A stretch of 20,916 nucleotides of DNA, taken from a virus. Below the pieces are notes generated by a model. It did no database searches. It was given only the letters and a program-made list of their open reading frames with translations, and was not told the DNA's origin. The DNA lies in IMG/VR virus record IMGVR_UViG_3300020191_000090, positions 1-20,916 of that record, one strand, 5' to 3'. Shown here one piece after another: positions 9,490 through 15,779 of the stretch. Every line of letters starts with the position of its first letter. Position 1 is the stretch's first letter. A program made the translations under genes and the position numbers.

Positions 9490-10401
9490 TTATTGATTCC
9501 AAGTGCGTACGAGTTCGCTCATGTTTTGATTAATTAAATTTTGTTTTTCTGCCCAGGTTGTGCAGTTAGCAAGTTTTTCTTGAAAGGTCATAGGTGTAAC
9601 TTCGGCAGAAGCATGGATTGGGTCGCTACCTGTTTCTTCTACCATAGTTTTGAAACGAGCCTCCATGCTTCCAAGTTGCTTTTGTAATTCGTCAACTTGG
9701 TTTTGTAGTTCTTCGTTAGATTTTCCGGCTGCTTCAATTGCTTTTTGAGAAGCATCTAAGTCCATAGCCAATCTGTCATTTTCTTCCTGGAGTTTGATTA
9801 AGTTACCTGCAACTTCTTCTACATTGTTTTCTTCTTTGGCTTCTGCAAATAAGCCCGTAGGGTTAGCAGCAGGTTGGGCGACAATCGAAAAAGCAGATAC
9901 GCTAATTGCTCTTGCATATACTTCCACATTTTCTTGCCCGTTAAATTGTTGTGCTTCACCTTCTTCATCATAGTAAATTGTTTCTGCCTGGAACTCTGCC
10001 GAAACACCAAATGCTTCAGGAGCTTTTTCTGCTAATTCAAACAAGGCATCGTAATCGCCTTGGTGGTGTTCTTTCCAGGAATCTAATGCTTGAAACTTTG
10101 CAGTTAGCTTGGTGTATTCCCCATCTTGTACAATTTCAAAGTCGCTCCACAATCCGATAGAGTCTAATGCTTCGTTGCTTGGGCTATGGGTGTAATATGC
10201 CTTGATGGTTTTACCTTCAACTGCATTGTAAAAACTCTGGATTGATGCTTCGTCCAATTTCATGCCGTGCCCTTTGGCTTCTGGTGTTGAAATTAAACTC
10301 ACATTGCTGATGCTGCCAAGGGCTCTATCCACAATGCCTTGGTTCATCTTCGTGTCGGTTTCAAATAATAGTTCCATACCTAAGGCATCTATGTCAACCA
10401 T
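9490..10401 (-). CDS. Prohead protease fused to scaffold (303 aa)
   Basis: Residues 1-185 resemble the herpes-assemblin-like phage prohead proteases. His72 sits in KAYYTHSPSNEALDSIGLW and Ser134 in EAFGVSAEF, the positions of the catalytic His and Ser in that fold. The domain closes with ARAISVSAFSIVAQPAANPT. Residues about 200-255 are a coiled coil (LIKLQEENDRLAMDLDASQ through LQKQLGSMEARFKTM), typical of a scaffold, and the last 45 residues form the tail that would bind the capsid protein. A combined protease-scaffold just before the coat gene fits lambda C/Nu3-type organisation. The start at 10401 has an ACCAATG context. ATG at codon 9 is an alternative. A terminator hairpin lies only 29 nt upstream. 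Confidence 0.8.
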   Translation of the reverse strand: MVDIDALGMELLFETDTKMNQGIVDRALGSISNVSLISTPEAKGHGMKLDEASIQSFYNAVEGKTIKAYYTHSPSNEALDSIGLWSDFEIVQDGEYTKLTAKFQALDSWKEHHQGDYDALFELAEKAPEAFGVSAEFQAETIYYDEEGEAQQFNGQENVEVYARAISVSAFSIVAQPAANPTGLFAEAKEENNVEEVAGNLIKLQEENDRLAMDLDASQKAIEAAGKSNEELQNQVDELQKQLGSMEARFKTMVEETGSDPIHASAEVTPMTFQEKLANCTTWAEKQNLINQNMSELVRTWNQ

Positions 10402-10430: not shown

Positions 10431-10460
10431 AAAAAAAGGGCTCCTGTTGCCAAGAGCCCT
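10431..10460 (-). terminator. Rho-independent terminator closing the accessory cassette
   Basis: On the minus strand a perfect 7-bp stem AGGGCTC/GAGCCCT (arms 10454-10460 and 10437-10443) encloses a 10-nt loop and is followed by seven T residues (10431-10437, sharing one base with the stem). It lies 53 nt after the last small gene and 29 nt before the protease start. It could also act as a 5' hairpin on a transcript starting just upstream. Confidence 0.85.
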
Positions 10461-10462
10461 AG

Positions 10463-10490
10463 ATTATGAATAAGAAACAAAAGTCGACAA
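10463..10490 (-). promoter_or_regulatory. Candidate sigma70-type promoter before the protease-capsid genes
   Basis: On the minus strand TTGTCG (10485-10490) and CATAAT (10463-10468) are separated by 16 nt, matching TTGACA/TATAAT at four and five of six positions. It sits between the last cassette gene and the protease gene. The predicted start of transcription would fall just before or in the terminator hairpin, which is odd. Chance occurrence in AT-rich DNA is a real possibility. Confidence 0.3.
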
Positions 10491-10513
10491 AGAGCCGATT
10501 CTTGCAAGTTGAA

Positions 10514-10657
10514 TTATTCTTGTTTTGCCTGCAAGGTTTTTTTTCTAGCTGCTTGCATCTTTGCTTGTTGTGCAGGTGTTATCTTGCGTTTGCTTTTCTT
10601 ACCACCTGCTGCTGCAATAGGGTTCTTAATTTCCTTGTTACAATGTGGGCATTTCAT
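10514..10657 (-). CDS. Small basic zinc-finger-like protein (47 aa)
   Basis: A 47-codon frame starting MKCPHCNKEIKNPIAAAGG and ending in a Lys/Ala/Gln-rich helix (RKITPAQQAKMQAARKKTLQ). The CPHC knuckle plus a His gives only three close metal ligands, so it may dimerise or bind zinc weakly. The basic C-terminal helix suggests nucleic acid contact. Small phage proteins with this CxxC start followed by a GGK-R-TPEQQ-type tail are a pattern I have seen in other phages, always of unknown role. Its ATG overlaps the stop of the 28-codon gene before it (ATGA at 10654-10657), supporting translation. It is the last gene of the cassette. Confidence 0.72.
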   Translation of the reverse strand: MKCPHCNKEIKNPIAAAGGKKSKRKITPAQQAKMQAARKKTLQAKQE

Positions 10658-10740
10658 TTGTAGTATGTAGTTATAATTAAAGGAACGAATATTCCAGACA
10701 CTAACCAGGTAATAGCGATTATTTCAATTAATGTATTCAT
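10654..10740 (-). CDS. Single-pass membrane micropeptide (28 aa)
   Basis: A 28-codon frame, MNTLIEIIAITWLVSGIFVP then LIITTYYK, that is almost entirely hydrophobic from residue 4 to 24 with Trp12 and a Tyr-Tyr-Lys end, as expected for one transmembrane helix. It is coupled on both sides by ATGA overlaps: its ATG overlaps the TGA of the 48-residue gene (10737-10740) and its TGA overlaps the ATG of the zinc-finger gene (10654-10657). This double coupling makes a chance frame unlikely. Possible roles include a small holin-like, superinfection-exclusion or membrane-sensing peptide; none can be chosen from sequence. Confidence 0.65.
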   Translation of the reverse strand: MNTLIEIIAITWLVSGIFVPLIITTYYK

Positions 10741-10883
10741 TTTTGCCAAGCTGCTTTCTTTTTCTTTTCTGGTGTAATTACCACTTTAATACCTCTTTCT
10801 AGGTCTGTATAAAGTATCTGACCTGTTCCCTGCTTTAGAGCTAGTATTTCGTGATGACTGAGTTTTATGTTTATTGTATGCAT
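10737..10883 (-). CDS. Small basic protein (48 aa), function unknown
   Basis: A 48-codon frame, MHTINIKLSHHEILALKQGT then GQILYTDLERGIKVVITPEK and a Lys-rich tail. The pattern of a strand (HTINIKLS), a helix (HHEILALKQG) and two strands (GQILYT, GIKVVITP) suggests a tiny alpha-beta fold. The start has the ACCAATG context shared with other cassette genes and lies in a 28-bp sequence also found before the 44-residue gene. The stop overlaps the ATG of the membrane micropeptide (ATGA). No family is recognised; a DNA-binding or regulatory role is only a guess from the basic charge. Confidence 0.65.
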   Translation of the reverse strand: MHTINIKLSHHEILALKQGTGQILYTDLERGIKVVITPEKKKKAAWQK

Positions 10884-10900
10884 TGGTTTTAATTTTGGTG

Positions 10901-10948
10901 TTATCTAGAATGTGTGCGATTACCTAACACATTATTTACCAATTTCAT
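10901..10948 (-). CDS. Candidate 15-residue leader peptide with a strong Shine-Dalgarno sequence
   Basis: A frame MKLVNNVLGNRTHSR begins at the ATG at 10946-10948 and stops at TAA 10901-10903. It is preceded at 7-nt spacing by AAGGAGG (10956-10962), the best Shine-Dalgarno match in the cassette. It starts inside the end of the 44-residue gene in another frame and fills most of the gap before the 48-residue gene, whose ATG lies 17 nt after its stop. It may be a leader that carries ribosomes to that gene. The AGGAGG also encodes Arg-Arg of the overlapping gene, so it could be accidental. Confidence 0.35.
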   Translation of the reverse strand: MKLVNNVLGNRTHSR

Positions 10949-11066
10949 CTTTGAACCTCCTTATGAAGTGACGGGCTGCATGGTACTCCTCGGTAGTAAG
11001 TTCATTATTTCGCCACATAGAATCAGTTTCGTCCATTAGTTTCTTAAATATTTCTTCTACATTCAT
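10932..11066 (-). CDS. Small acidic helical protein (44 aa), function unknown
   Basis: A 44-codon frame, MNVEEIFKKLMDETDSMWRN then NELTTEEYHAARHFIRRF and KDEIGK. It is predicted to be two amphipathic helices joined by a short turn at NNELTTEEY. The start ATG overlaps the stop of a three-codon frame (ATG CAC ACA TGA, 11063-11074) that carries the ACCAATG context, so the exact initiation route is unclear. The preceding gene ends 12 nt upstream. Codon content and helix periodicity look like a real gene, but no family is recognised. Confidence 0.6.
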   Translation of the reverse strand: MNVEEIFKKLMDETDSMWRNNELTTEEYHAARHFIRRFKDEIGK

Positions 11067-11078
11067 GTGTGCATTGGT

Positions 11079-11369
11079 TTAGTCTTTGGTGTACCCATCA
11101 AACCATCCTTCGCCTCGAGTGTCGTCTCTGCTGCACCATTCTTGAGCCTGTTCTAGGGTTAAACCTGTTGCGATGACTTTGTTCTGTTTTGTTGGTTTTG
11201 CGTAGTATCTTATAATTCTATATGTTTTCATGGTTCTAACTTTCTCGTTGTAACATTGTTGGCAGCACCATCCATTCGTGTATGGGTTTGCATTGTAGCA
11301 GTCGTTGGCTGAAAAGAGCAACGCCTTGCAAATGTCGCATGTCGCCTGATAAGGGTATTCTGTTAACAT
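11079..11369 (-). CDS. Zinc-ribbon protein with a GLTLEQA-WFDGY C-terminal module (96 aa)
   Basis: Two modules can be seen. Residues 11-39 hold CDIC and CCQQC, spaced as a zinc ribbon. Residues 48-93 read KTYRIIRYYAK, then GLTLEQAQEWC and WFDGY, a compact module known as a stand-alone small protein in many phages, of unknown role. I chose the ATG at 11367-11369, which overlaps the upstream stop by 7 nt. A longer frame from 11411 would lie entirely inside the upstream gene and adds only a basic extension. Met47 could also start the second module alone. Zinc binding and a nucleic-acid role are inference. Confidence 0.7.
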   Translation of the reverse strand: MLTEYPYQATCDICKALLFSANDCYNANPYTNGWCCQQCYNEKVRTMKTYRIIRYYAKPTKQNKVIATGLTLEQAQEWCSRDDTRGEGWFDGYTKD

Positions 11370-11644
11370 GCCAAGTCTACGCTCCGAACTTGTCTGCCTG
11401 TGTGAATACATTGCACAGGTTCAGTTTCTTTTATGTGTCCTTTTTTGAGTAGCTCTGTAACTCGAGGCCGTACTTGGTTCATGTCATCAAGCATAAGGTA
11501 TGTCTTTATTGCACGATCCGTAATTGGTCGCTTTAGGTTTGTCATTTTATTAATAGCCCAAAGGATTTTACTTTGTCTATCTGGCAAGGTTTTGAGCAGT
11601 TCAATGTAGCTTGCATAAGTGTTTGCGTGTAGTTGTTTTTTCAT
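11363..11644 (-). CDS. Winged-helix DNA-binding protein (93 aa)
   Basis: The sequence RQSKILWAINKM (helix 1), PITDRAIKTYLML (helix 2), DDMNQVRPRVTELLKKGHIKE (recognition helix and turn) and a closing strand HTGRQVRSVDL follows the winged helix-turn-helix plan over residues 20-90. VRPRVTEL followed by KGxI is the typical recognition-helix-to-wing signature. It is most likely a DNA-binding regulator of the cassette or an adaptor for a replication or transcription complex. The start has the ACACCAATG context and follows the upstream stop by 21 nt. Function is inferred from the fold only. Confidence 0.72.
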   Translation of the reverse strand: MKKQLHANTYASYIELLKTLPDRQSKILWAINKMTNLKRPITDRAIKTYLMLDDMNQVRPRVTELLKKGHIKETEPVQCIHTGRQVRSVDLAC

Positions 11645-11665
11645 TGGTGTTGTGCAGTTGGTTGG

Positions 11666-11920
11666 TTAGTAGATTGATGTCCACTCATCAATAAAGTCGT
11701 ATGCGTCAAAGCAGTTATCAAAAATGCAAATTGCTTTTCGCTTTGAGTTTGTTGCATACTTTGCAATAACTAGATAATATTGCTTAGTAAATAGTTTGAG
11801 ATAAATAACTTTTGATCCGTCATCATACTTGTCTTGATTGAATGCCACGACAGGAGGTTTAACAGGTTTGCCCTCTTGGTTTTTTATGCCTAATGCTATT
11901 GATAATTCTTGAATGCTCAT
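11666..11920 (-). CDS. Hypothetical small protein (84 aa)
   Basis: An 84-residue frame with SIQELSIALGIKNQEGKPVK at the start and strands VIYLKLFTKQYYLVIAKYAT in the middle, ending FDAYDFIDEWTSIY. The composition is consistent with a small alpha-beta domain; LSIALGIKN could be one helix of a helix-turn-helix, but no second helix follows. The start has an AT-rich leader (ACAACAATACAATG) without a Shine-Dalgarno sequence. Neighbours on both sides are small unknown genes separated by about 21-25 nt. I do not recognise the family. Confidence 0.62.
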   Translation of the reverse strand: MSIQELSIALGIKNQEGKPVKPPVVAFNQDKYDDGSKVIYLKLFTKQYYLVIAKYATNSKRKAICIFDNCFDAYDFIDEWTSIY

Positions 11921-11945
11921 TGTATTGTTGTGTTAATTTGTTAAT

Positions 11946-12227
11946 TTAGTCTTCGTAAATATATTGGCTTGGTTCTAAAACTGTATCTATTAAGTTTTCT
12001 AGTTTTTGTAGTTCTTCATTTGCCCAAATTTTTTGAGCTTCTGTTACATCGTTGCTTGTTAGTGCTTTAACAAGGTATCCTAAGACTGCTTCTTTTGCTG
12101 CCCTGTAGAAACTATTTTCTGTAAGATGATAGGTTCCTTGGCTTTCTTTTAAAAGTTCTTTGGTGTTGTTCCACAATGCCTCCTGAACTTCTACGTAATC
12201 CTTATCTGTTTCTATTGTAATTTTCAT
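11946..12227 (-). CDS. Hypothetical helical protein (93 aa)
   Basis: A 93-residue frame: a short strand (KITIETDKDY) then mainly helices (VEVQEALWNNTKELLKES, NSFYRAAKEAVLGYLVKAL, AQKIWANEELQKLENLID). The ATG lies 1 nt after the TAA of the preceding gene, inside the sequence GACTAAAATGA that is repeated at the next junction upstream. No motif points to a function. Acidic, all-helical phage proteins of this size are often inhibitors or adaptors that bind host proteins, but this is speculation. Confidence 0.65.
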   Translation of the reverse strand: MKITIETDKDYVEVQEALWNNTKELLKESQGTYHLTENSFYRAAKEAVLGYLVKALTSNDVTEAQKIWANEELQKLENLIDTVLEPSQYIYED

Positions 12228-12228
12228 T

Positions 12229-12582
12229 TTAGTCTCTCCATTCGTTTGTGATGCAGTAATAATCTACCTTGGCTTGCTCGTATGTATATCTGCCAAGCAA
12301 CCCTCTTTCTGCATGTAGTAAAATTTCTTGCTGCCAAGACTTGGCCTTTGGGTATCTATGCTTCACAATAGCATCCATAAACCATAAAAGATTATCTGCT
12401 TGCCTAGCTTCTCTTTCTAGCTCTGTTTCAGTTTTTTTGAGCTTTGCTCTCTTCTCTATTCTTTTGCGTCTAATAGCTTCTTCTATTATTCCTTTCAAGC
12501 CTTGTGGTGTTATAGGAAAAAGTTCTATTGAGTTTAGCCTTTCTGGTTTATAAGATTTAAATTTTTTAGATTTGTTTCTCAT
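12229..12582 (-). CDS. Hypothetical basic protein (117 aa)
   Basis: A 117-residue frame with a very basic N-terminal half (RNKSKKFKSYKPERLN; RRKRIEKRAKLKKTETELERE) and a less charged C-terminal half (LLWFMDAIVKHRYPKAKSWQ through YEQAKVDYYCITNEW). The basic part could bind nucleic acid; the C-terminal part looks folded and helical. Its ATG overlaps the preceding TGA (ATGA at 12579-12582), and its TAA is followed after 1 nt by the next ATG. No family is recognised. Confidence 0.65.
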   Translation of the reverse strand: MRNKSKKFKSYKPERLNSIELFPITPQGLKGIIEEAIRRKRIEKRAKLKKTETELEREARQADNLLWFMDAIVKHRYPKAKSWQQEILLHAERGLLGRYTYEQAKVDYYCITNEWRD

Positions 12583-12767
12583 TTTAGTCTCTTCATTCCT
12601 GGAGGTGTTATTGCTGCTTCAAGCACTTCAATGATGGAGTCAACTTGTTGGCGTTCTTCAGAAGTTACAAGCAAGTCACTTGCTTTTTCTTGCAATCGAA
12701 TAAAGTGCTCAATGTCTCCAACTTCGACAGCATTTGCCATGTCTGAAAGTAATTGTAATAATGTCAT
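12579..12767 (-). CDS. Hypothetical helical protein (62 aa)
   Basis: A 62-residue frame starting MTLLQLLSDMANAVEVGDIE. It consists of helices with an EERQQVDSIIEVLEAAI segment near the end. A longer upstream start at 12848 exists, but it would overlap the preceding gene by 85 nt. The ATG at 12765-12767 overlaps the preceding TGA as ATGA, matching the coupling used elsewhere in this cassette, so I chose it. The TGA overlaps the next ATG as well. The role is unknown. Confidence 0.65.
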   Translation of the reverse strand: MTLLQLLSDMANAVEVGDIEHFIRLQEKASDLLVTSEERQQVDSIIEVLEAAITPPGMKRLK

Positions 12768-13000
12768 AGTGATTGTTGGTTTACAGCTACCCATTCTTCT
12801 TTTCTTACATCTTTCGTTCTTACTATATATCCTTCGTTGATGTACCATTGGATAACTCCTCTGATATTAAGCCAATTGCGAACTCTAATTTTTGTTGCCT
12901 TAATAGGCTCAACAAAATCTTTTCTCCACTCTAGCTTACTTACTTCTCCATCAAGGAGACCTTCAATGATACTTTGGGCATGTTCTTGTGCTTTTGTCAT
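12764..13000 (-). CDS. First gene of the accessory cassette, possible winged-helix protein (78 aa)
   Basis: A 78-residue frame starting MTKAQEHAQSIIEGLLDGEV. The C-terminal half, KIRVRNWLNIRGVIQWYINE followed by GYIVRTKDVRKEEW, has the helix-then-strand-hairpin pattern of a small winged helix (INEGYIV is a typical turn into the wing). It is the first gene after the strong terminator at 13097-13128, so its own promoter must lie between 13022 and 13096. I see only weak promoter-like sequences there. Function unknown; DNA binding is a moderate guess. Confidence 0.62.
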   Translation of the reverse strand: MTKAQEHAQSIIEGLLDGEVSKLEWRKDFVEPIKATKIRVRNWLNIRGVIQWYINEGYIVRTKDVRKEEWVAVNQQSL

Positions 13001-13096
13001 AATATACTTGGTTGTGGGTTAATGTTGTTGTATATTCTTAACTTACCATAGCCTGTTACGATGTAAAGAAAAAAGATTAAAAAAGTTTCAAGGCAC

Positions 13097-13128
13097 AAAA
13101 AAACCACCCTTGCCGGAACAAGGATGGT
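13097..13128 (-). terminator. Rho-independent terminator after the portal-phosphoesterase block
   Basis: On the minus strand a 10-bp stem with one mismatch (ACCATCCTTG and CAAGGGTGGT; arms 13119-13128 and 13103-13112) with a 6-nt loop is followed by seven T residues (13097-13103). It lies about 60 nt after the phosphoesterase stop and separates packaging and portal genes from the cassette. Confidence 0.9.
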
Positions 13129-13129
13129 C

Positions 13130-13150
13130 TGGCATCTACCCCTGATGCCA
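13130..13150 (-). other. Second hairpin abutting the terminator
   Basis: TGGCATC (13130-13136) and GATGCCA (13144-13150) form a perfect 7-bp stem with a 7-nt loop, one nucleotide from the terminator stem. It may stabilise the 3' end of the transcript or be a processing site. Confidence 0.6.
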
Positions 13151-13188: not shown

Positions 13189-14097
13189 TTATTTTGCCCT
13201 GGTTACTTCTAGTATTGGCTCGCAAATATCTTTGTTATTTTCCTTGGTTTTCCTTGCACTAAATCTAAGCCAAAGTGCTCCCGTAGGTTTTGGTGGCCCG
13301 CCCCTTTCAATATGCCACCCTCCGTATCCGTCAGAATATTCTTCTTTGTAGCTTGGAACCTTCAGGTGCAGTTGTTCATCGTGATAAATTGAACCTTTGT
13401 TAGTCAGCCGGATTCTTGCGATTGGGAACTGCCATTCGTTATGGGTATGCCCTGTTGCTACAATATGTGCATCTGGTAAATAAACTGCCTGCCTGTTTGT
13501 TTGTATTGTCCCTTTTGTAACAGGTGCGTCCCCTCCGTATCCGTGGTGATACCACATGTTTTTGGTCATACATTGGGAATGATACATGATTTGGAACTTT
13601 ACCCATCCACTCATCCCACCAACTTTAATTGAACTGCCTTCCTTGTCGTTGAGCTTTTCAGCAAGTCTTTCTGTAAGGTTGGTTTCGTGCCTCTTTGCTA
13701 TGTTTGTTTCATGATTGCCAAGTGCCATGATCGCAAAGTTTTTTGCGTAAGGTGCGTAGAATTTTGCTGCCGTATTAACCAAGCTATCCAGGTAATCCCC
13801 TTTTGCGTGCTCTGGTTTCAAATCTTTCTTTGTACCCCTGGGATCGTATTTCCCCTGCATTGCACAAAATAAATCACCACCATCTATGATAATTGCGTTT
13901 CTTTCTTTCGCCTGCTTTAGATGCCTGAGTTCCATTGCGTTGTCAGATTTTGGGTTATCATGATGTCTATCAAATGACAACAACACCCAAAAAGAATCTT
14001 CTGCAGCCGATGATTTTAATCTATGTTTTACAAAGAAAACATTCCGGCTCCTTTGTGTTACCTCCGTGCAGCCGATTGGTATTTTCTGAACAGGCAT
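13189..14097 (-). CDS. Calcineurin-like metallophosphoesterase (302 aa)
   Basis: The ordered metal-binding motifs of the metallophosphoesterase superfamily are present: FDRHHDN (Asp43, His45/46), IDGGDLF (Asp75), ALGNHE (Asn128, His129), YHHGYG (His184/185) and ATGHTHNEW (His217, His219). The family hydrolyses phosphomono- or diesters with two metal ions; members include nucleases and protein or nucleotide phosphatases, and the substrate here cannot be told. Its ATG overlaps the portal stop by one base (TAATG at 14095-14099), so it is co-translated with the portal, an odd partner for a virion gene. It may process DNA ends during packaging or act on host nucleotides. It ends before the terminator. 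Confidence 0.85.
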   Translation of the reverse strand: MPVQKIPIGCTEVTQRSRNVFFVKHRLKSSAAEDSFWVLLSFDRHHDNPKSDNAMELRHLKQAKERNAIIIDGGDLFCAMQGKYDPRGTKKDLKPEHAKGDYLDSLVNTAAKFYAPYAKNFAIMALGNHETNIAKRHETNLTERLAEKLNDKEGSSIKVGGMSGWVKFQIMYHSQCMTKNMWYHHGYGGDAPVTKGTIQTNRQAVYLPDAHIVATGHTHNEWQFPIARIRLTNKGSIYHDEQLHLKVPSYKEEYSDGYGGWHIERGGPPKPTGALWLRFSARKTKENNKDICEPILEVTRAK

Positions 14098-15779
14098 TAA
14101 GCCTTGTCTATTTCTTTGAGCTTTCTAATGGCCCACTCGATACCACTTGTTCCACCCCAAGCATCCCACATTAATCCTCCGCATCCTTCTGAATATGGTA
14201 CATCTTTGTGCTGCTGATGCCTTTTGAAACTTGCCATTCTTGCGATGGTTTCCCTGCTAATGTTTTCGCCTTTTGCTAATTGGTTTGCCCGTGCCCACCC
14301 AACAGGTGTTCCGCAATCTGGGTTATTTTCGTCTCTGTACTTCAATGCCCTTTTTGCGTTATTGGATGCAGACTTTGGGTAATCGTTGTAAGTTGCAAAC
14401 TCAAGGGATTCTAGTTTTTCTTCTTCTGTTACTAATGCGGATTCTCCAAGGTATTCTTTTTCTATCGCCCTGTCTTTTGCCATTTTCTTTAGCTCTTCTT
14501 CGTAGTCCATGCCATTGGCTGCATAGATTGTGGATTTACTTGCCAATCCGTTTTCTAATAGAACTGCATCTGTTTGTGCATCTTGCCTCCGGTCTAGGGT
14601 TGGGCTTGTTGTCCACATGAAGTCGAAACTCTCTCTATCCCCTTCGACCATTCCGTTTATTTCGCCATTATTTTCCCATTTGTACATCTTCCATTTACAT
14701 AATCTTCGCAAGAAAATGTCTTCTATCTGTTCCCTGATTTGCCCAAACCTGTGATTGGTAACTGCTCTGGTTGCTTTTGAACTGCTGAAAGATGCGTTTG
14801 ACCACCCAACTAGGTTTTCTACGGTTATGCCAACAGAAGAGCAGGCAAAGGAAATCAGCGACAACATGAATTTGTCCACCCCATCAACTGCACCCCCTTG
14901 TATGGTTTCAACTGATTCTCCGGCTTCTAGTAACAACAAGGATCCTGAGTAAAGTTTCTTGTATGATGAACGCATGGGTTCGTCGCCAAATTCGTTACCA
15001 TCCCATCTTGCCGAATATGGTTGGTTGCTTGTGATGAACCCTGTTAGTGCTGAACTTGTTTTAACTTTAGCAGTATATGCAGTTTGCACCTCATGTATGT
15101 CTTCAAGAGTTTTGGTTGCTGCTGCTAATAACGGAGTGCCCCTGATTTGCCCAATCCGTGTCGTATTTGCTACATGTATGCAGTCTTTGCTATTTATGTA
15201 AATGCCTTCTGAATAATCTACTACACCATCTTTAACCTGGGCTATTCTGTATTGGGTTGGGCGGCCAAATTGATTCAATACAATTCCATCGACTTCGTTT
15301 TTCTTTCGTTTCTGTGGGTCATGGCTACTTGCTACCCTTTCGGATGGTACAAGTTGAAAGCTGCCCCCCTTTGTTAGCAATACAAATGCTTCACCTGCTA
15401 ATAGCAAATCGGTGATAATATGCTGTAAAACCTTTTGCATACCATGGCCAGATATTTCGCAATTTCTAAAATAGTTTTTAAAAAGTTTATTTTGTTTTTC
15501 GTTGAGTTCTTCATTGCTACCCATTGCCTGGTATTTGCAGCTTCCCAAGTTGCTTACAAATACTTGGATAATGGATTTGCAGATTGGGTTGTTTCTCTCG
15601 AGGTCTCGCAGGGTTGAAAGCAATTCTAAACGATTGCCATGCGATAAAACTTTTTCTTCTGTTTGGGTAATACTGCTTCTGTCAAGAGCATCTTCGTGTT
15701 TTCTCCATGAAGGCCGGCTACCTGCGTAGCCAAATTGTACAGGTTTCCCGAACTCGTTTAGTATTGTCTGCGGTTGCAT
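14097..15779 (-). CDS. Portal protein, lambda type, with C-terminal extra domain (560 aa)
   Basis: Residues about 30-400 resemble lambda gpB-type portals: LERNNPICKSIIQVFVSNLG near 60, a LLLAGEAFVLLTKGGSFQLV segment, DCIHVANTTRIGQIRGTPLL, KTLEDIHEVQTAYTAKVKTS, and ATRAVTNHRFGQIREQIEDI. Twelve such subunits would form the DNA channel at one vertex. Residues 464-560 form an added domain with NAKRALKYRDENN, CGTPVGWARANQLAKGE, SRETIARMASFKRH and the ending GGLMWDAWGGTSGIEWAIRK, a pattern I know from other phage head proteins (some portals and proteases) but without an established role. The start follows AAGGAG at ideal spacing, the best ribosome site among the head genes. The start lies inside the end of the gpW-like gene. 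Confidence 0.88.
   Translation of the reverse strand: MQPQTILNEFGKPVQFGYAGSRPSWRKHEDALDRSSITQTEEKVLSHGNRLELLSTLRDLERNNPICKSIIQVFVSNLGSCKYQAMGSNEELNEKQNKLFKNYFRNCEISGHGMQKVLQHIITDLLLAGEAFVLLTKGGSFQLVPSERVASSHDPQKRKKNEVDGIVLNQFGRPTQYRIAQVKDGVVDYSEGIYINSKDCIHVANTTRIGQIRGTPLLAAATKTLEDIHEVQTAYTAKVKTSSALTGFITSNQPYSARWDGNEFGDEPMRSSYKKLYSGSLLLLEAGESVETIQGGAVDGVDKFMLSLISFACSSVGITVENLVGWSNASFSSSKATRAVTNHRFGQIREQIEDIFLRRLCKWKMYKWENNGEINGMVEGDRESFDFMWTTSPTLDRRQDAQTDAVLLENGLASKSTIYAANGMDYEEELKKMAKDRAIEKEYLGESALVTEEEKLESLEFATYNDYPKSASNNAKRALKYRDENNPDCGTPVGWARANQLAKGENISRETIARMASFKRHQQHKDVPYSEGCGGLMWDAWGGTSGIEWAIRKLKEIDKA

Follow-up and report, generated by a model that had tools for sequence, protein, structure and literature searches.

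Early-type genes in a variable slot between the portal and protease genes of a small phage: a probable accessory transcription unit

The virus record IMGVR_UViG_3300020191_000090 contains eleven small open reading frames (ORFs; c1 to c11) that lie between two predicted intrinsic terminators, T1 and T2, and separate the portal gene from the protease and coat genes of a late cluster. The locus raises the question of what kind of unit these genes form, and also of how late transcription passes the terminators that nearly all relatives have between the genes for portal and capsid. The stretch analysed (the window) spans the whole IMG/VR record (20,916 bases). The interval was probably best explained as an accessory (moron-type) multi-gene transcription unit of early-type genes, placed between the portal and protease-capsid blocks of the late cluster. 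As judged from sequence comparison, it is a slot that is filled or empty and whose cargo is replaced wholesale, with a predicted promoter and operator after T1, usually a T2, and several genes of early-operon type.

Occupancy of the slot among relatives

Relatives were gathered by portal and coat searches, which gave about 14 distinct phages with portal identities of 63-98%, and all window genes were mapped onto each of them. Terminase, portal, protease and coat genes kept a constant order, and the portal-protease interval was variable. The slot was empty in L005/L015, L173 and L177; in L015 and L173 the protease gene directly follows the portal gene, with a single terminator between them. L171 and L174 carried c11 and one other gene, and the slots of L004, L006, L169, L176 and L178 held 0.9-2.9 kb of small genes mostly unrelated to those of the window. 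Compared with the window, L084 (IMGVR_UViG_3300021379_001631, contig G001) had two additional genes ahead of c1, one more between c1 and c2, and no c8. Other cargo was also observed: in L165 (4838-6053) the slot block is reversed and c11 adjoins a Mom-like DNA modification gene (E 2e-19, PHROG), and DUF932/TIGR03299 genes occur in L006 (8691-9815), L169 (8047-9120), L188 (533-1507) and at the end of L166.

The first-pass annotation had proposed that an insertion would appear in related phages as a present/absent block with breakpoints close to the two terminators, and this is what was found in two independent pairs of close relatives, L169 with L173 and L177 with L176/L178. The filled L169 and the empty L173 have near-identical T1 sequences and the same leader ahead of the protease gene, and the extra 2.7 kb of L169 is placed between the T1 tail and this common leader. 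In the empty L177, T1 is followed by the sequence found 3′ of c11 in L176 and L178 and then by only the right arm of their T2 hairpin, a junction that we read as the scar of a lost cassette (a deletion). The existence of empty-site relatives suggests that the cassette is dispensable. T1 had been regarded as a border element of the insertion; this was corrected, since empty-site relatives also keep T1, which therefore belongs to the junction and not to the insert.

The cassette ORFs themselves were compared with those of L084, in which all except c8 (10 of 11) recur at 86-100% amino acid identity and with no stops. Values of dN/dS ranged from 0 to 0.29 and indicated purifying selection in nine of the ten, the exception being c2, for which only three differences were available. 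By this comparison the ORFs between T1 and T2 are genuine genes. Starts were revised for c2 (ATG 12767), c7 (ATG 11369) and c10 (ATG 10740), and the ATGA coupling noted earlier was seen as overlaps at c1/c2, c9/c10 and c10/c11. Base composition was also of the unusual kind associated with morons, with 36.5% GC in the cassette and about 41.5% outside it. Across c1-c5 (11666-13000 in the window, 11718-13338 in L084) the synonymous difference was 12%, compared with 36% in flanking genes (Fisher 3e-14), and these genes likely form a tract of recent recombination or exchange between the two lineages.

Terminators, promoter and operator of the slot

Hairpin-plus-T sites at dG <= -14 were sought on both strands of the entire window. 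T1 and T2 were the sole sites found, and no equally strong site arose in 40 dinucleotide-shuffled versions of the minus strand, in agreement with the original observation that two strong minus-strand terminators bracket eleven small genes. A T1-type terminator was present in 11 of 13 readable portal-protease junctions of relatives, empty sites included, so that the junction is predicted to be terminator-punctuated even without a cassette. T2-type terminators were predicted at seven loci, every one of them filled, which would give filled slots, and these only, the factor-independent terminator of their own that is expected of a moron. The protease gene starts only about 36-45 bases past T2 or T1 (window and L173, respectively), and no clear promoter was detected between T2 and the protease gene. 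Because almost no room is left for a promoter, late transcription would have to cross both hairpins.

These observations are shared by an alternative explanation, in which c1-c11 are simply late genes, transcribed by read-through from the portal gene, with hairpins that only tune or stabilise the late message. The presence of a post-portal terminator in empty-site relatives means that the hairpins need not mark a cassette, and the need for late transcription to cross T2 likewise fits read-through. The confinement of T2 to filled slots speaks against this explanation, as do the promoter and operator that follow T1 in filled and not in empty slots and the relationship of the cargo to early replication-operon genes (both described below), and we consider it improbable.

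In filled slots, a sigma70-like promoter is predicted just past T1, with an inverted repeat, CATAAC-NN-GTTATG, in or beside its spacer; both were missing in empty slots. The putative promoter of the window lies within about 35 nt after T1. It has counterparts in L004, L169, L176, L178, L166 and L171, and two copies in L084, as exemplified by TTGACATAACctGTTATG (L169), CATAACtaGTTATG (L178), CATAACaaGCTATG (L176), CATAACagGTTATG (L084), CATAACcgCTTATG (L004) and CGTAACagGCTATG (window). L084 has two operator sites and L169 has three, and each inserted block is headed by one of them. At one mismatch or fewer, 10 sites were found in slots (19 kb) and 2 elsewhere (248 kb), an enrichment of about 52-fold per base that is descriptive and partly circular, the consensus having been drawn from the slots. 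The exact pattern TTGACATAACNNGTTATG occurred in 12 IMG/VR contigs, of which two belong to the clade (L169 and the near-copy L210) and the others were mostly chance-like; the operator is therefore not generally common. Of the earlier proposal that this is an independently expressed accessory unit, the bounded, present/absent unit with promoter-like sequence stands, and its expression is what we infer.

The repeats also bear on the possibility that the slot is maintained chiefly for a cis element, for instance a replication origin, and that its genes are passengers. The position of the slot matches that of the SPP1 oriR segment, in which an origin and three morons, flanked by transcription signals, break up the order of portal and capsid genes (PMC6316719). 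The repeats found here are single operators that lie hundreds of bases from one another and in each case follow a -35 hexamer, rather than iteron arrays, and empty-site relatives have no such DNA at all. We regard this possibility as highly improbable.

Early-operon cargo and a candidate regulator

The cargo of the slot was related to early replication operons in several ways. The slot operator also heads the early operon of G002 (the contig that contains L004), which encodes ERF-like, replication initiation-type, DnaC-like loader and RusA-like proteins (the ERF-like and RusA-like labels are readings of the sequences, family matches having been made for the G001 counterparts). Relatives of c6 are located in the early operons of G003, G004 and G005, flanked by the same two genes in G003 and G004. 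In G001 these flanking genes abut, 12 bases apart, and c6 sits in the slot, so that c6 has apparently changed place between early operon and slot. At the protein level, the gene that opens the slot of L169 is identical to the first early gene of G005. Taken together with the early-operon relatives of c2 and c3, these findings indicate that genes pass between the early operon and the slot.

Such cargo also helps to weigh a defence, anti-defence or exclusion island, an explanation compatible with an accessory unit and in line with the anti-host, exclusion or defence role first suggested for these genes. Small early phage genes often act upon the host, and the slots of relatives carry the Mom-like (L165) and DUF932/TIGR03299 (L006, L169, L188) proteins mentioned above. 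The window genes gave no weighty match to defence families: PADLOC returned nothing usable and no proteins of defence or anti-defence systems (the best match, to part of a Cas10, had E 0.005 and was taken as chance), and Pfam and NCBIfam assigned no function to the cassette genes. The cargo that can be traced (c2, c3 and c6) derives from the replication operons of relatives. The present evidence lends no support to the suggested role, and a defence island appears unlikely.

Only c11 is common to most filled slots. Within the clade, operator and c11 were both present at 8 loci and both absent at 5 (Fisher 8e-4, uncorrected for shared descent), the operator of L174 being very weak. A search for the c11 tail in other phages gave 15 unrelated contexts, in which same-strand operators with at most one mismatch were counted up to 1.6 kb upstream. 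Five contexts (L219, L220, L230, L237 and L244) had such an operator behind a -35-like hexamer, compared with 0.17 sites expected on the basis of 1.8 Mb of loci from other phages. Two of the five were known beforehand, and the consensus was relaxed (C/G at two positions) once L004 and L219 had been seen. A cleaner independent test, using contexts found later, gave 3 of 10 (L230, L237 and L244). L237 has a perfect operator together with TTGACA-17-TATAAT. These data make c11 the leading candidate for the operator's regulator, and that c11 binds the operator is the simple reading; the alternative is that a host regulator common to these phages acts there instead of c11. Described earlier as a zinc ribbon, c11 falls short of a full one, with a single CPxC pair followed by a basic tail.

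The proposed mechanism would operate as follows. Host RNA polymerase would start near 13035 and transcribe c1-c11 early in infection, and T2 would end the cassette transcript so that the capsid genes stay off. T1 would stop portal-block transcripts early on, keeping them out of the cassette, and late polymerase would pass T1 and T2 by read-through or antitermination. Binding of c11 to the operator would regulate its own unit. The likely benefit to the phage is that extra early functions would be gained or lost with the late operon undisturbed.

Several observations weigh against this interpretation, in addition to the circularity of the operator enrichment. The promoter and operator of the window match less well than those of the relatives (TTTACA; operator with two mismatches), and the strength and timing of the slot promoter are predictions from its sequence. 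L006 is filled and has neither operator nor c11, the filled L004 has no T2, and L171 and L174 have no terminators. Finally, a different palindrome, TGTAACGC...GTTACA, is present in the early promoters of G001, G003, G005 and partly G004, and G006 has yet another. The early operons of four members of the clade open with promoters of the TTGACA/TTGAAA type that contain TGTAACGC...GTTACA, as located at L191:4470-4534, L196:6080-6140 and L199:4800-4850. Since the early palindromes differ, G002 alone offers direct evidence that slot and early genes are controlled in the same way; the slot promoter appears early-type by sequence and cargo, and common control with the early genes would be an extension from these.

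A broader proposal is offered tentatively and with less than even confidence: c11 may found a tiny phage regulator family (GGKKSKRxITPEQQxKMQ tail, often with CPxC) whose operator, CATAA(C/G)-NN-(G/C)TTATG, lies in a sigma70 spacer, and operator, c11 and cargo may travel between unrelated phages as one early unit that regulates itself, with a dedicated portal-protease landing slot in the present clade. The locus thereby provides a concrete candidate regulator-operator pair for a protein family of no known role, and a testable case of small phages carrying and swapping early genes inside a late head operon.

Other cassette genes, neighbouring genes and known systems

The winged-helix assignment of c6 was plausible but weak. 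A LexA-like Pfam match fell below the cut-off, and AlphaFold, run on two sequences, gave low confidence; a model with pLDDT 57 has helices and then two strands. The best Protein Data Bank matches, to DnaD-N and ROK/MarR-type folds, had no significance and were not used as evidence. The product of c10, described earlier as a membrane micropeptide, is a hydrophobic micropeptide.

On the minus strand, the slot is preceded by genes for a ParB-like protein, a DNA methyltransferase, the small and large (GpA-type) terminases, an unassigned product, the lambda-family portal and a metallophosphoesterase; T1, c1-c11 and T2 are followed by a protease/scaffold-type gene, a coat candidate and tail genes. 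In INPHARED the best portal match was no higher than ~27% identity, and c6 and c11 had no match. A search of 84,980 genomes with portal and terminase for a host or prophages returned zero relatives.

The C-terminal part of the portal (14097-14460, residues about 440-559) matches more than 500 viral contigs, the best 80 at 57-87% identity and mostly confined to that part, and the portal body has few relatives. This part, which L084 lacks, looks like a widely exchanged add-on domain. The phosphoesterase gene (13189-14097) is 74-79% identical to genes in larger phages, and in both of those examined (L085 and L089) it comes after a gene encoding more than 3,000 amino acids, which suggests recent transfer between very different phages. 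Its inclusion in the insertion was rejected on the basis of this identity, its position upstream of T1 and its absence from other relatives, and it is probably a separate acquisition.

Features of the slot and its borders in the window.
Feature	Position	Strand	Evidence or remark
Portal (lambda family), left border of slot	14097..15779	-	Phage_portal_2, E 1e-36
Calcineurin-like metallophosphoesterase, between portal and T1	13189..14097	-	Among relatives, gene carried only by window and L084
T1, predicted intrinsic terminator after portal/phosphoesterase	13101..13130 (stem 13130-13101)	-	dG -16.8, then T-run
Putative cassette promoter	13040..13067	-	TTTACA (13067-13062), 16 nt, TAAGTT (13045-13040)
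Operator-like palindrome CGTAAC-AG-GCTATG in promoter spacer	13047..13060	-	2 mismatches to CATAACNNGTTATG
c1, 78 aa	12764..13000	-	ORF and comparison with L084
c2, 62 aa	12579..12767	-	Relatives in early operon of G005 (L199:4302-4472) and slot of L166
c3, 117 aa	12229..12582	-	Relative in early operon of G003 (L196:6815-7153)
c4, 93 aa	11946..12227	-	ORF and comparison with L084
c5, 84 aa	11666..11920	-	ORF and comparison with L084
c6, 93 aa, winged-helix-like (weak)	11363..11644	-	Early-operon gene in G003, G004 and G005
c7, Cys-rich N-terminus and C-terminal ...WFDGYTKD domain	11079..11369	-	ORF and comparison with L084
c8, 44 aa, least certain gene	10932..11066	-	Missing in L084
c9, 48 aa	10737..10883	-	L084 protein identical
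c10, 28 aa, hydrophobic micropeptide	10654..10740	-	ORF and comparison with L084
c11, 47 aa, CPxC motif and GGKKSKRKITPxQQAKMQ	10514..10657	-	Candidate regulator, in most filled slots
T2, predicted intrinsic terminator just ahead of protease	10437..10460	-	dG -17.8, then T-run
Protease/scaffold-type gene, right border of slot	9490..10401	-	ATG 36 nt past T2 stem

Three known arrangements resemble the slot. In the Bacillus subtilis phage SPP1, oriR and ORFs 8-10 lie between the packaging/portal and capsid genes and are bracketed by transcription signals (PMC6316719). The place, the brackets and the small moron genes with no assigned function are alike; SPP1 has an origin, whereas a conserved operator-promoter marks the slot, and its cargo is shared with the early operons of relatives.

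Morons (Juhala et al. 2000 and Hendrix et al. 2000, cited in PMC6316719; definition also in PMC1524935) have their own promoter and terminator, lie between late genes, are of unusual base composition and occur in some relatives only, all of which resembles the slot, the promoter of the slot being a prediction. The classic lambdoid moron is one or a few host-like genes, whereas the present unit contains up to eleven, promoter-headed blocks can stack (L169, L084), and the traceable cargo consists of phage early genes.

The promoter-early stem-loop cassettes (PeSLs) of T4-like phages (Arbiol 2010 and Comeau 2014, cited in PMC4503421) likewise join a terminator hairpin to an early-type promoter at the borders of shuffled genes, early timing being a prediction in the present case. 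They are reported for T4-like myoviruses, with many shuffling copies per genome, whereas here a small phage of lambda-portal type has a fixed single site, with one copy in this window and as many as three in a relative, and an operator in the promoter. What is new relative to these known kinds is that one fixed slot combines an operator common to its members with cargo of early-operon type and with a candidate regulator also seen in phages outside the clade.

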